Positions 19,213-50,814 of a stretch of 64,000 bases of DNA are shown piece by piece. A program made the position numbers and the translations under genes. Under the pieces are notes generated by a model that was not told the origin of the DNA, ran no database searches, and worked only from the letters and a program-made list of their open reading frames with translations. The first letter of the stretch is position 1. The number at the start of each line of letters is the position of its first letter. The DNA comes from Sphingomonas aerophila. GTDB lineage: Bacteria > Pseudomonadota > Alphaproteobacteria > Sphingomonadales > Sphingomonadaceae. The stretch is from positions 434,001-498,000 of the forward strand of contig NZ_JACIJK010000001.1 in assembly GCF_014199305.1 (NCBI RefSeq), in the 5' to 3' direction.

Positions 19213-20271
19213 TCAGTCCACCAGAACCTTTGACCGCATCACGAAGCCGGAGGGGGCGGGCAGATCCGCCGCGGCGTCGACGTCGAGATCGAGATCCATA
19301 GTCGTATGCCCGCCGATGGTTGCAGGGTCGATAGCCACCACGCGGGTGAACTGGTTGTGGGCAGCATCGGCGGCGAGCAGGATCGGGGACGCCGCTGGCT
19401 TGCGGGTGCGGGCCGGCTTGGACGGCAGGCGATGCGTGCTGCCCATGACGGCGAAACGAGCGTCGCTGGCGGCCAGTTCGCCCATGACCTTTGCCGCGCT
19501 CTTGGTGATCTGACGCACGCGCTCCTTGGTTACGCCGACGTCATTGCCGACCTCGTCCAGCGTTGCGTCATCGAACAAGCGACGCTCGATTACCGAACGG
19601 TGCTGCGCGACTTTTTCCTCCAGTTCGGCCAACTCCCCGGCATCGAGCGCTGCGCTGCCACGAAAGCGCGGGAGGTTGGGATCAGCAGGCTGAGTGGCGC
19701 GCTTTGCCCGTGCCCGGCGCTTCAACTGCTCCATGCCAACCGAGCGCAGATGCTCGACATACCGATCGATCAGCGCGGCGCGTGCGGCGCCGGCAAAGTA
19801 GTCGGACGCCGCCGACTCGGTCCGCTCAAGGGCGTCCGTGTCTTCGATCATCGACTCGAGGGAGCCCTCGTCGCCATCTGCATTGGCCGAGATCGCGTTG
19901 AGCGAAACAGTGGTTGCCTCCACCTTCTTCGCGGACGGGCGCTGATCCGTCATCAGGCGGAAACGCAGGCTCTGCAGTTCGCCGCGGAGCTGCCAGTTCA
20001 CGAAAGTGGTGAACTGCGCCTTTTCGGGTTCATAGGCCTGGATGGCACGATGCACGCCAATCGCGCAGCACTGCTCGGCGTCCTCCCAGTGAGCGGCAAG
20101 GCCGTACTGGCGGATGAAGTGGCGCATGCGCGGCCCGATGAGCTTGAGGATGTGGGCAAAGGCCTTGTCGGCGTTGGCGCGCTGGCGAACGGTTTGACGA
20201 ACCTCGCCAGCCGGAGTGTTCTCGATCACAACGGCGACAGCAGCTTCCAACGCAACAGTGGTCTTCGACAT
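19213..20271 (-). CDS. Alternative sigma-70-family sigma factor with C-terminal extension
   Basis: 352 residues from the ATG at 20271. Region 2 is recognisable: WEDAEQCCAIGVHRAIQAYE and TTFVNWQLRGELQSLR, with the RGEL ending closer to FliA than to RpoH. A variable middle (about 135-220) follows, then region 4: DDATLDEVGNDVGVTKERVR, with the typical KERVRQI helix. The last 80 or so residues are proline/alanine-rich and then acidic, with no known match. FliA is possible given the locus, but the known FliA promoter pattern was not found at flagellar genes here. RpoH-like function cannot be excluded. Confidence 0.85.
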   Translation of the reverse strand: MSKTTVALEAAVAVVIENTPAGEVRQTVRQRANADKAFAHILKLIGPRMRHFIRQYGLAAHWEDAEQCCAIGVHRAIQAYEPEKAQFTTFVNWQLRGELQSLRFRLMTDQRPSAKKVEATTVSLNAISANADGDEGSLESMIEDTDALERTESAASDYFAGAARAALIDRYVEHLRSVGMEQLKRRARAKRATQPADPNLPRFRGSAALDAGELAELEEKVAQHRSVIERRLFDDATLDEVGNDVGVTKERVRQITKSAAKVMGELAASDARFAVMGSTHRLPSKPARTRKPAASPILLAADAAHNQFTRVVAIDPATIGGHTTMDLDLDVDAAADLPAPSGFVMRSKVLVD

Positions 20272-23804: not shown

Positions 23805-23906
23805 CTTATAGAATGACTGACGATCGAGGCGGGGCGAGGTGGGCAAAATTTGCCGATCTGATTTTTGCACGCGGTTCCGTCCGGCCGGCTCCCACCCCTC
23901 TACAAT
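23805..23906. promoter_or_regulatory. Divergent control region of flbT and flgE with GGCA-N5-TGCC palindrome
   Basis: A perfect palindrome GGCAAAATTTGCC occupies 23842-23854. Minus-strand TATAAG (23810-23805) faces flbT, and plus-strand TACAAT (23901-23906, in TCTACAATA) faces flgE. The palindrome centre is about 40 bases from the first box and 55 from the second, so a protein bound there could influence both. Confidence 0.55.
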
Positions 23907-30596: not shown

Positions 30597-30610
30597 TTCT
30601 ATTATAGAGG
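30597..30610. promoter_or_regulatory. Shared divergent -10 element (TTCTATTATAGAGG)
   Basis: Near-palindromic TCTATTATAGA gives TATAAT on the minus strand toward the small membrane protein and TATTAT on the plus strand toward the gene at 30659. The identical 14-mer occurs at 34271-34284 between fliL and flgF. Confidence 0.6.
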
Positions 30611-34270: not shown

Positions 34271-34305
34271 TTCTATTATAGAGGGGCGAGCGGGCAGTTT
34301 TTGCC
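34271..34305. promoter_or_regulatory. Divergent control region of fliL and flgF with GGCA-N5-TGCC palindrome
   Basis: The 14-mer TTCTATTATAGAGG (34271-34284) supplies TATAAT on the minus strand toward fliL. A palindrome (34293-34305, read GGCAAAAACTGCC on the minus strand) is centred about 21 bases from that box, near position -33, where it would overlap the -35 contact. No other -10 box is evident for flgF, so the same element may serve both. Confidence 0.6.
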
Positions 34306-37233: not shown

Positions 37234-37248
37234 TTAACTGCCTGTTAA
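37234..37248 (+). promoter_or_regulatory. CtrA-type site TTAA-N7-TTAA upstream of flagellin
   Basis: TTAA at 37234-37237 and at 37245-37248 are separated by exactly 7 bases, the consensus of the CtrA response regulator in Caulobacter and relatives. It lies about 140 bases ahead of the flagellin start. Binding is inferred. Confidence 0.55.
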
Positions 37249-37325
37249 CTAACAAAAAAAGTGCGCAATACGCTCACCCGGTCGATTTTCTTCCCATGAT
37301 GTAATCACAGGCCGCAGGGGCGGCC

Positions 37326-41759: not shown

Positions 41760-42185
41760 ATGCGGATCGCCGGGTTGCCTCCCGCCATGCAGCAAGGCTT
41801 GCTTGCAGCGCTCGCCAAGGCAGGCGAGGATTTCACCAGCGCCGTAAAGGTCGTGGAGACACGCGCTGGCGCGGCCCTGCCGCCGACCGTCGCTCCACTG
41901 GCGCAGCCGGCCACGTCAGTCGAGATGTTGGTGGCGCTTGCCGCGGCGGAGCCACTGGTGGAACGGCGCCGCAAGATGGCCGAAGCAACGAACCGCGGCC
42001 TGGCGCTGCTGGAGCGGCTGCATGCCAAATTGCTTGCCGGCGCGCTCGAGCCCGAGCTGGTCGAAGAGCTCGTTGAGTGGTCGGAAAGCTTTCAGGCGCC
42101 AGAGAACCCGCAGCTGGCCGCGCTGGCCAGCGAAATCGAAGTGCGGGTGCGAGTCGAACTCGCGAAGCACGAGATGCGGGTATAA
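41760..42185 (+). CDS. fliX: Flagellar assembly regulator FliX
   Basis: 141 residues with strong GAGGAG upstream. Helical C-terminal region RGLALLERLHAKLLAGALEP and ELVEWSESFQAP fits FliX. In Caulobacter FliX senses basal-body assembly and holds FlbD in check, then helps activate it; an FlbD-like regulator is encoded at 49456. It is a single-gene unit diverging from flgI. Confidence 0.88.
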   Translation: MRIAGLPPAMQQGLLAALAKAGEDFTSAVKVVETRAGAALPPTVAPLAQPATSVEMLVALAAAEPLVERRRKMAEATNRGLALLERLHAKLLAGALEPELVEELVEWSESFQAPENPQLAALASEIEVRVRVELAKHEMRV

Positions 42186-45498: not shown

Positions 45499-45509
45499 CC
45501 TATAATAGG
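45499..45509. promoter_or_regulatory. Shared divergent -10 element between the repeat-protein gene and fliG
   Basis: CCTATAATAGG contains TATAAT toward fliG (plus, 45501-45506) and reads CCTATTATAGG toward the repeat-protein gene. It is near-palindromic, like the shared boxes at 30597, 34271 and 41711. Confidence 0.6.
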
Positions 45510-47378: not shown

Positions 47379-47429
47379 GGCAAAAAATGCCTAGCGGCAG
47401 AAACTGCCGGCCCATTGGCGTCCTATAAA
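47379..47429 (+). promoter_or_regulatory. fliF promoter with tandem GGCA-N5-TGCC palindromes
   Basis: Two 13-base palindromes, GGCAAAAAATGCC (47379-47391) and GGCAGAAACTGCC (47396-47408), have centres 17 bases apart. TATAAA (47424-47429, in CCTATAAAA) follows, so the second palindrome lies near -35. In Caulobacter FlbD represses fliF from ftr sites near its promoter, and this layout would suit repression. Confidence 0.65.
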
Positions 47430-49452: not shown

Positions 49453-49455
49453 GTG

Positions 49456-50814
49456 ATGGAGATGGCCGATCCTATTCGCCTGCTGCTGGTAGGCGCCCCG
49501 CACCGGTCCGAGTTCCGCACCGCCGCCGGCATGGCGCGGGACGCGGGCGCGGAGGTGACGCTGGCCGACACGCCTGCAGGGGCGCTGGCCCACTTGCGCG
49601 TCAGCCATGCCGGCCTGGTGATGATTGATGTGGAGCTGGATATAGTGGAACTAATGGCCCAGCTGAAGGCGGAACGGTTTGCCGTCCCGGTGCTGGCATG
49701 CGGCATCAATGCGTCGGCTGACCGGGCCGTTGCAGCCATTCGAGCCGGCGCGCACGATTACCTGCCGCTGCCGCCCGATCCCGAGCTGATCGCCGCCGCG
49801 CTGACCGCCGTTGTTCCGGCGCCCGCGGTGGAGATGGTCGGCGAAGATCCTGCCCTGCGGCACGCCGTCGCCTTTGCCCGGTCGCTGGCGAACAGCAGCG
49901 CACCCGTGCTGATCTGCGGTGAAGCGGGCACGGGCAAGGAAATGATGGCGCGTGCCATCCACGCGTACTCCGGCCGCCCCGGCCGGTTCCTTGCGGTGGA
50001 ATGCGCTGGCGTGGCCGCCGAGGTGGTCGAAGCCGAATTGTTCGGCCATGAGGCCGGTGCCTTTGCGGGTGCAGTCGCTCGCCGGCTTGGTCGCTTCGAG
50101 GAAGCGAACGGCGGAACCCTGTTCGTGGCCGATGTCGATTGCCTGGCGCCCGTTGCTCAGGGCAAGCTTCTGGCGGCGCTCGATAAAGCCGGTTCACGCC
50201 GGGTGGCTGGGGGCGCGATCGTTTCGACCGACGTTCGGCTGATCGCCAGCACCCGCCGCGACCTCCAGGCGATGGTCGGCGAGGGCAGCTTTCGCGCCGA
50301 CCTGTTCGCGCGCCTCAACATCGTTCGCGCCGGCCTGCCCCCCTTGCGCGAGCGCGCGGCCGACATCCCGTTGCTGGCACGTCACCTGGCCGCGCGGCTG
50401 GCCGCGACGCATGGACTGGTCCCAAGGCCCTTTGCTGGCGAGACGCTGACGCTGCTCGGTGAGCACGAATGGCCCGGCAACGTGCAGGAACTGGAGAACG
50501 TAACGCACCGCGCGCTCCTCCTCGCCACCGGCTCCACCATCGGCCCCGAGGCGATCGTACTGAACGATGGCGCGCGCATCGTGGCTCGCTCGCAGCATGA
50601 GGCGCCGGCCGAGGGGGCCTGCCGCATGGAAGTGGAGGCGCTTGTTGGCCGCACTGTCGAGGAGGTTGAGCGCGAGCTGATCCTTCAGACGCTTGAGCGC
50701 TGCCAGGGCAACCGGACCTCCGCGTCGATGATCCTCGGTATCTCCGTACGCACGATGCGCAACAAGCTGAGAAGCTTCATCGAGGCGGGGATCCCCGTCG
50801 CGCCTGCCCTCTAA
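49456..50814 (+). CDS. flbD: FlbD-like NtrC-family flagellar regulator with altered sigma-54 motifs
   Basis: 452 residues from ATG 49456 (GTG 49453 or ATG 49462 are alternatives). The receiver-like domain (1-115) lacks the acidic pair near its start. The AAA+ domain has an intact Walker A, GEAGTGKE (155-162), but the GAFTGA loop reads GAFAGA (201-206) and Walker B reads TLFVAD (221-226) where LFLDE is usual, with Ala in place of the metal-binding Asp. The arginine-finger region FRADLFARLNIVRAGLPPLR is kept. A Fis-type HTH ends the protein (GNRTSASMILGISVRTMRNK). It may act as a plain DNA-binding regulator on the GGCA-N5-TGCC sites. Confidence 0.88.
   Translation: MEMADPIRLLLVGAPHRSEFRTAAGMARDAGAEVTLADTPAGALAHLRVSHAGLVMIDVELDIVELMAQLKAERFAVPVLACGINASADRAVAAIRAGAHDYLPLPPDPELIAAALTAVVPAPAVEMVGEDPALRHAVAFARSLANSSAPVLICGEAGTGKEMMARAIHAYSGRPGRFLAVECAGVAAEVVEAELFGHEAGAFAGAVARRLGRFEEANGGTLFVADVDCLAPVAQGKLLAALDKAGSRRVAGGAIVSTDVRLIASTRRDLQAMVGEGSFRADLFARLNIVRAGLPPLRERAADIPLLARHLAARLAATHGLVPRPFAGETLTLLGEHEWPGNVQELENVTHRALLLATGSTIGPEAIVLNDGARIVARSQHEAPAEGACRMEVEALVGRTVEEVERELILQTLERCQGNRTSASMILGISVRTMRNKLRSFIEAGIPVAPAL

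Follow-up and report, generated by a model that had tools for sequence, protein, structure and literature searches.

What becomes of a flagellar activator of the NtrC type when the motifs that tie it to sigma-54 and to ATP hydrolysis are lost? The question is raised by the FlbD gene of Sphingomonas aerophila. The window, by which we mean the whole 64-kb stretch that was analysed (positions 434,001 to 498,000 of contig NZ_JACIJK010000001.1), is occupied over most of its length by a flagellar/chemotaxis cluster, and the FlbD protein P0001 is encoded there by an uninterrupted open reading frame (ORF), the GTG at 49453 being a possible start. A sequence-only reading had proposed that this protein is decoupled from ATP hydrolysis and sigma-54 and acts at sigma-70-type promoters. 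Our results fit this proposal: the motifs are lost, the AAA+ domain is under relaxed constraint and is missing altogether from relatives, and palindromes of the FlbD type lie beside TATAA boxes. On these comparative grounds, FlbD has very probably become an ATP-independent DNA-binding regulator of sigma-70-type promoters. The AAA+-less relatives and a sigma factor encoded in the cluster, both described below, were absent from the sequence-only reading. The features of the protein are the following.

49456-50814, + strand: FlbD orthologue P0001, 452 amino acids (aa), sigma-54 loop and Walker B lost (ORF, Pfam, alignment)
49471-49809, + strand: receiver-like domain, residues 6-118 (Pfam, domain comparison)
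49918-49941, + strand: Walker A GEAGTGKE, residues 155-162, retained (motif reading)
50056-50073, + strand: L1 loop GAFAGA, residues 201-206, Thr of GAFTGA gone (motif reading)
50116-50133, + strand: Walker B TLFVAD, residues 221-226, Asp225 replaced by Ala and catalytic Glu226 by Asp (motif reading)
50641-50793, + strand: Fis-type helix-turn-helix (HTH), residues 396-446, strongly conserved (mean pairwise identity 0.864)

The NtrC layout and the Walker A that had been claimed are supported by Pfam (Sigma54_activat 3.9e-49, HTH_8 1.2e-13, Response_reg 2.3e-7) and by the residues themselves, and the altered L1 loop and the Ala at the metal-binding position of Walker B were both read where listed. 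Of the features of a sigma-54-dependent bacterial enhancer-binding protein (bEBP), Walker A is present and GAFTGA and the Walker B Asp-Glu are absent. The place of the gene between fliN and flhA, in the Pfam-supported order fliG-fliH-fliF-fliN-FlbD-flhA-fliK-flgD, fits FlbD orthology, and the FlbD model NF050807 is the top NCBIfam model for the protein (482.2 bits, under its curated score of 750 bits). For the cluster genes called fliJ (without a Pfam match), LT and flaEY the names are putative labels. The remark that the receiver lacks the usual acidic pair is true of window FlbD and is not diagnostic: since the intact consensus also lacks the pair, and the Caulobacter FlbD receiver is described as devoid of key phosphorylation residues (PMC3096577), this state is ancestral. 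AlphaFold prediction of P0001 alone gave a predicted local distance difference test score (pLDDT) of 39.7 and the model was not used.

To place these changes, orthologues were collected at several depths. In the family draw of 199 genomes, nine FlbD orthologues besides the window matched at E values of at most 2.6e-106 and the next matches at no better than 5.3e-71, which splits orthologues from paralogues. A genus-wide search (E ≤ 1e-75) found 78 copies of the FlbD orthologue, spread over 76 of 295 genomes; these 78 and five copies from other genera form the degenerate set (n = 83). GAFTGA occurs in none of the 83, GAFPGA is the commonest loop (42 copies) and in a few the loop is missing. The Walker B Asp position is Arg in 81/83; of the other two, the window copy has Ala and the second carries a local frame shift. 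The alignment that the sequence-only reading had called for thus finds both changes fixed in the clade. Three copies with a frame change or partial sequence (L097, L122, L125) are inside this motif count and outside the domain statistics given below. As a separate observation, the Walker A Lys is replaced by Arg in L102, L107, L119-L121 and L123, four of which also have a shortened L1 loop.

The aligned intact set (n = 31) consists of four family members (L018, L019, L020 and L022) and 27 copies spread over seven further families in the order. All 31, the four and 27/27, have G(A/S)FTGA and the Walker B Asp-Glu. At class level G(A/S)FTGA was found in 29/29 fetched loci and LLLDE in 28/28 readable ones; the 27 other-family and the 29 class-level copies are the best-scoring rows of longer lists. 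A lower-scoring class match from outside the order, G715, is degenerate (GAFEGA, LYLRDI) and lies in a similar cluster with the same sigma gene (L281-L282), which was probably gained by horizontal transfer. Six distant matches at first listed as possible orthologues (L126-L131) were dropped as a different, intact bEBP. The HTH recognition segment reads SVRTMRNK in 81/83 degenerate copies (SVRTLRNK in one, and one partial copy does not include it) and SIRT(L/M)RNK in 31/31 intact copies, with the RTxRNK of FlbD present in both groups.

Eleven further genomes have the cluster sigma gene and the flhA of the same system, and gave no FlbD match at the threshold used. Between fliN and flhA these 11 carry a short frame, which we call mini-FlbD, whose end is 44-82% identical to the C-terminal part of P0001; in most of the 11 the likeness spans residues 393-452. 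From a plausible Met, nine of these proteins measure 95-150 aa (140-150 aa in 8/9). Domain scans found HTH_8 in 8/8 and found no Sigma54_activat, AAA families or Response_reg in any of the same eight. The N-terminal stretch may be a receiver remnant, from a by-eye likeness to P0001 residues 8-75. The tenth genome, G107, has the same layout with a 149-aa open frame, and G231, the eleventh, has an HTH that is itself decaying.

In a tree of 44 FlhA sequences, the degenerate (19) and mini (11) rows form sister clades (support 95/90 and 98/88) and the 14 intact rows lie outside, so that two changes of state suffice for intact, degenerate and mini. Intact close relatives had been named in advance as what would speak for a recent lesion. 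Such relatives do exist, namely the four family members; they fall outside the degenerate clade and therefore date the loss and do not turn it into a recent lesion. Among the intact rows G022 is the nearest; it combines a flaEY-like gene order and a FliX match with an intact FlbD, and its 67%-complete assembly gave no sigma match. In a 14 kb stretch of G022, FlbD-type palindromes lie upstream of fliF and of fliG, and a weak -24/-12-like match precedes fliG; neither upstream region has a CTATWATAG.

The promoters differ between these groups as well. The absence of -24/-12 promoters from the flagellar operons, noted by the sequence-only reading, holds in the window, where sigma-54-like sites show no excess (10 vs 11.8 expected), and beyond it. 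In intact clusters, a sigma-54-type site TGGCCC(G/A)-N4-(T/C)TGC(T/A) precedes fliK-flgD in 10/14 and flbD in one more (11/14). For 9 of those 10 sites, the 160 bp upstream contain an FlbD-like palindrome (no more than one mismatch), against 11% of random windows. The same pattern finds no site ahead of a recognised flagellar gene in any of the 30 degenerate or mini clusters (20-64 kb each). Both groups were filtered alike: a match was counted if it fell outside recognised genes and had one of these genes no more than 2.5 kb downstream. The gene for sigma-54 itself, rpoN, is present once in the genome of the window and in all 77 genomes of good quality out of 80 searched, those with intact and those with degenerate FlbD being pooled (the search was made without G426, G427, G438, G460 and G485; G022 gave no rpoN match, its assembly being 67% complete). 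Since rpoN persists, sigma-54 appears to have been uncoupled from the degenerate and mini flagellar clusters and not lost from the genomes.

In place of such sites, the clusters carry palindromes and TATAAT-like boxes, which in the window are located as follows.

47379-47391, + strand: FlbD-type palindrome GGCAAAAAATGCC, distal, upstream of fliF (pattern GGCA-N5-TGCC)
47396-47408, + strand: FlbD-type palindrome GGCAGAAACTGCC, proximal, upstream of fliF (pattern GGCA-N5-TGCC)
47424-47429, + strand: TATAAA box 15 nt past the palindrome, putative fliF -10 (promoter alignment)
34293-34305, unstranded: FlbD-type palindrome between fliL and flgF (pattern)
34273-34281, unstranded: symmetric CTATTATAG/CTATAATAG box in the fliL/flgF divergon, TATAAT towards fliL (pattern, alignment)
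45500-45508, unstranded: symmetric CTATAATAG box in the flaEY-like/fliG divergon (pattern)
30599-30607, unstranded: symmetric CTATTATAG box upstream of the gene of the cluster tetratricopeptide repeat (TPR) protein (pattern)
23842-23854, unstranded: FlbD-type palindrome GGCAAAATTTGCC between flbT and flgE (pattern)

GGCA-N5-TGCC was counted 75 times vs 27.5 expected in degenerate clusters, 33 vs 8 in mini clusters and 30 vs 18.5 in intact ones. A search for this palindrome followed by TATAA at a spacing of 9-15 nt gave 41 sites in 1.18 Mb, in 24 of the 30 degenerate or mini clusters, and the spacing was always 12-15 nt. The same search gave one site in 0.42 Mb of intact clusters and none in 146 kb of 38 other loci. 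In this count and in that of the boxes, three of the 14 intact clusters (G052, G022 and G040) are represented by 4-5 kb stretches. The TATAAT-like boxes that had been reported at the flagellar operons also stand out. CTATWATAG, a 9-bp palindrome giving a -10-like TATAAT or TATTAT on both strands, occurs three times in the window, each time between flagellar-cluster genes, and not once in 100 shuffles. Degenerate and mini clusters have 44 and 16 sites vs about 0.2 expected, and intact clusters one (inside flhA) vs 1.0. At least one is present in 25/30 clusters, mostly at orthologous places: near flgF in 12/13 degenerate and 8/8 mini clusters, near the TPR gene in 12/15 and 6/7.

These observations suggest the following scheme. 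The window protein would descend from the sigma-54-dependent flagellar activator FlbD, whose former role it would have given up. An ancestor shared by a large clade would have exchanged the sigma-54 promoters of its flagellar regulon for TATAAT-like -10 promoters. FlbD would have kept its binding site, once a distant enhancer and now next to the -10, centred at about -31 to -34. Bound to the DNA there, it would activate from close by, repress, or do both, acting on a sigma-70-type RNA polymerase with no ATP hydrolysis. Because the ATP-driven step was no longer required, the AAA+ domain would then have decayed in the branch of the window, while the sister branch would have lost it by deletion and kept a short HTH protein. 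The scheme draws on what was observed: loss of the motifs, relaxed constraint, deletion of AAA+, promoters of different type, the arrangement of sites and co-occurrence with the sigma factor. From these we infer binding of FlbD to the palindromes, a lack of ATPase activity, the direction of control and the identity of the sigma factor at the TATAA boxes.

A narrower role would be that of a repressor only: the sigma-54 arm would be lost and negative feedback on fliF left, a palindrome over the -35 region blocking sigma-70 polymerase. Caulobacter FlbD is described as binding ftr sites, activating sigma-54 genes and repressing fliF (PMC3930126, PMC3096577), the repression passing through ftr4 (PMC3930126). 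In degenerate or mini clusters the best-conserved palindromes are indeed those upstream of fliF (23/28) and of flgF (18/21), and in the putative promoters of fliF and fliL the box spacing would centre them at about -31 to -34. However, inspection by eye of the promoter alignments of these two genes showed no -35-like element, and the constant 12-15 nt to TATAA would suit a proximal activator as well. We regard repression alone as possible, though short of an even chance.

Regulation by FlbD at such promoters also has to be considered together with the sigma factor of the cluster.

19216-20271, - strand: divergent sigma-70-family factor P0002, 351 aa without start Met (Pfam)

P0002 matches Sigma70_r4 at 1.2e-8, and r2 at 0.0097, under its cut-off. 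It remains under the curated cut-off of all 24 NCBIfam families matched, with 28.9 bits on TIGR02479 (FliA/WhiG) vs a cut-off of 189.6, and 29.6 of 323.1, 33.3 of 394 and 35.9 of 354 bits on the RpoH, RpoS and RpoD equivalogs. A profile of 13 relatives matched RpoS chains alone in the PDB, weakly and mainly in region 4.2. At E ≤ 1e-10, P0002 was found in 41/41 degenerate-FlbD genomes, 0/35 intact-FlbD genomes (four of which had their motifs checked separately) and 0/4 genus genomes without FlbD. Genus-wide it is present in 76/76 FlbD genomes, two as partial matches, and in 10/219 others, of which four are mini-FlbD genomes and six have no flhA of the same type. In the family draw it was found in seven mini-FlbD genomes, with weaker or stray matches in other FlbD-less genomes, and of the 181 genomes drawn from the class, G715 alone gave a strong match outside the family. 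Two partial copies were also seen in the window's own genome outside the window, at G000:C24:6-446 (85%, first 147 residues) and G000:C8:212631-212867 (92%, first 79).

This distribution invites the view that P0002 reads the CTATWATAG/CTATAAT boxes with FlbD as its -35 surrogate, the two jointly replacing sigma-54. The neighbourhood is consistent with it, the gene lying beside LT, fliJ/fliI and flbT in 15/19 contexts seen, as are the recurrence of the exact 9-mer box at orthologous places and the better conservation of region 2 than of region 4, both regions being assigned by eye. Yet the -10 of RpoD is TATAAT too, and P0002 could serve late genes instead. Moreover, homologues exist away from flagellar genes (second copies in G377 and G262; G132; G039, with LT alone), and no CTATWATAG occurs in the 16 kb around these four. 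The association of P0002 with FlbD cannot separate cause from joint inheritance, because by the tree all these traits would have arisen once, together. We find this exchange of factors rather unlikely. The most far-reaching form of the idea is that the whole regulon switched in one step, from sigma-54 and an ATP-driven FlbD to P0002 reading the bidirectional CTATWATAG with FlbD as the -35 surrogate, the AAA+ domain decaying or being deleted afterwards. This we judge unlikely. If true, the series intact, motor-dead and motor-less would be a living record of an NtrC-type activator becoming a Fis-like DNA-binding protein.

Could the degenerate AAA+ domain nevertheless still work, as an ATP-binding switch like NtrC of Rhodobacter capsulatus, or as a subunit that poisons assemblies of an intact bEBP? 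Constraint on the three domains bears on this point. Mean pairwise identity in degenerate and intact copies (80 and 31) is 0.67 and 0.655 for the receiver, 0.546 and 0.762 for AAA+, and 0.864 and 0.874 for the HTH. The corresponding median ratios of nonsynonymous to synonymous substitution rates (dN/dS), from 2440 degenerate and 54 intact pairs with dS 0.1-1, are 0.304 and 0.296, 0.492 and 0.241, and 0.166 and 0.102, the HTH thus being slightly raised too in degenerate copies. By these estimates AAA+ constraint is clearly relaxed, short of neutrality. A working domain would account for a dN/dS of 0.49 and for the Walker A Lys kept in 77/83 copies. Partners would also be at hand, since in the window's own genome (4.0 Mb, 31 contigs) Sigma54_activat gives 12 matches that pass the cut-off, nine being strong ones, window FlbD among them, and R. 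capsulatus NtrC is described as requiring ATP binding and not hydrolysis (PMC10274813). On the other side, the Lys is Arg in the remaining six, the loop is deleted in several copies, and the whole domain is missing in 11 related genomes, most with the same promoter layout. We hold a working AAA+ domain to be quite unlikely. A recent lesion, a sequencing error or a pseudogene, for which one could cite the genus copy with a local frame change at Walker B (L097), has a negligible chance, already contradicted by the clade-wide motif loss and by 78 copies in 76 genomes with no inner stops in the genus listing and an HTH under strong constraint.

Several points nonetheless weigh against FlbD as an ATP-independent regulator of sigma-70-type promoters. 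Residue 226, the catalytic Glu position, is acidic in 72/82 copies (E52, D20, G6, N4); together with the retained Walker A Lys, replaced in those six copies, and an AAA+ dN/dS below 1, this may reflect nucleotide binding, oligomerisation or contact with FliX. The palindrome count of the window is unremarkable and by itself not significant (6 vs 2.8 expected, 6/100 shuffles being as high); the case for the palindromes rests on their placement across genomes. N4 and N7 spacers are also about twofold in excess in degenerate clusters, and the strict palindrome-TATAA arrangement is absent from six clusters. That the palindrome is an FlbD site we infer from this placement and from a resemblance to ftr. 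CTATWATAG is missing in 3/19 degenerate clusters, and near fliG it is found in 15/19 degenerate and 0/11 mini clusters. As for sigma-54, before filtering the pattern had 16 matches in 1.18 Mb of degenerate or mini clusters vs 29 in 0.50 Mb of intact ones. A general sigma-54 matrix scan over the clusters gave no consistent excess in any group, intact included; the signal of the intact clusters leans mainly on one conserved promoter, that of fliK-flgD, which emerged only in the position-wise comparison. Finally, all co-occurrences come from one origin, and therefore the P values overstate independence.

Other observations were made along the window and among the relatives. At the flagellin promoter (window about 37289-37303) a conserved tCTTcCCAnaATGaa block is shared by 13 sequences and is unlike the TATAA boxes of the other operons. 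It is a candidate late-gene promoter and somewhat resembles a sigma-32 -10. A full CtrA-type box TTAACTGCCTGTTAA lies upstream of the flagellin gene at 37234-37248, with 0 expected in shuffles; a CtrA site as a clade feature was rejected, the TTAA-N7-TTAA box being present in 1/22 clusters, the window alone. An Rfam scan of the window at gathering scores gave no match. Five distant loci from a scan of genome contigs with P0001 were not taken as orthologues (30-38% identity). Another bEBP of the window's own genome, L007 (C4:150175), has no GAFTGA loop yet retains the Walker B LFLDE; from its place near another NtrC-type gene it is probably NtrX. The FliX gene of the window is placed as follows.

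41760-42185, + strand: FliX gene (Pfam PF10768, 3.2e-16)

In the flgI-flhB slot of G259 (L336), the single mini genome with the flgI region seen, there is no FliX gene where degenerate clusters carry one; resting on that one genome, a loss of FliX together with AAA+ was not concluded. Two loci, L314 (G205) and L320 (G221), have a truncated flhA of the same system abutting flagellin/flgH or motB and no FlbD or sigma match, and these clusters are apparently broken or decaying. Another flhA-like gene, about 36-41% identical, is present in 32/34 genus genomes of a chosen set (e.g. L321-L330), and may belong to a second flagellar system or to another export system.

Relatives of bEBPs that left sigma-54 are known. 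TyrR works with sigma-70, and VpsR, which also does, binds cyclic di-GMP (c-di-GMP), but neither is a flagellar FlbD orthologue. For the nucleoid protein Fis, descent from an NtrC-type HTH has been proposed; mini-FlbD resembles it as an NtrC-type HTH freed from AAA+, and differs in having an N-terminal stretch, the same locus and living intermediates. With the sigma-70-acting NtrC-type proteins, window FlbD shares the absence of GAFTGA and the TATAAT-type boxes at putative targets. According to one paper, Caulobacter NtrC, R. capsulatus NtrC and Vibrio cholerae VpsR lack GAFTGA and act with sigma-70, and the last (spelt VspR there) does not need ATP (PMC10274813). In the NtrC of R. capsulatus and Caulobacter, whose classical role is nitrogen assimilation, the L1 loop is deleted, whereas the clade of the window has also lost Walker B and its sister clade the entire AAA+ domain. 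FlbD of Caulobacter crescentus has in common with window FlbD a flagellar role, a divergent receiver and a FliX partner. It is stated to have GAFTGA (PMC10274813), unlike the clade of the window, which is without GAFTGA, Walker B and sigma-54-type sites and has palindromes beside TATAA. A FliA/WhiG sigma-28, Swit_1281, is reported in a sphingomonad flagellar cluster (PMC3238334); like P0002 it is a sigma-70-family factor among flagellar genes, and P0002 differs from that class in its low TIGR02479 score. In one study FlbD is absent from the Rhodobacteraceae that it shows, and none of the four RpoN of R. sphaeroides is said to take part in fla2 expression (PMC6180460). By word search, the text of a preprint on two flagellin clusters in plant-associated Sphingomonas has no FlbD, sigma factors or promoters (PMC13015449), and no paper on an FlbD that works without sigma-54 or lacks AAA+ turned up in the literature library searched.

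For the genus, the first consequence concerns annotation. A Sphingomonas strain paper calls its FlbD the sigma-54 activator (PMC8921679), a label that would be wrong wherever the FlbD of the strain belongs to the degenerate clade. More generally, single NtrC-type proteins were already known to have moved to sigma-70; here the shift appears to have taken in an entire regulon, and its intermediates survive, intact, motor-dead and motor-less versions standing at one locus with matching promoter differences. This makes testable how an enhancer-type activator may turn into an ordinary promoter-proximal regulator, and whether Fis-like proteins may arise from NtrC-type ones through loss of AAA+.

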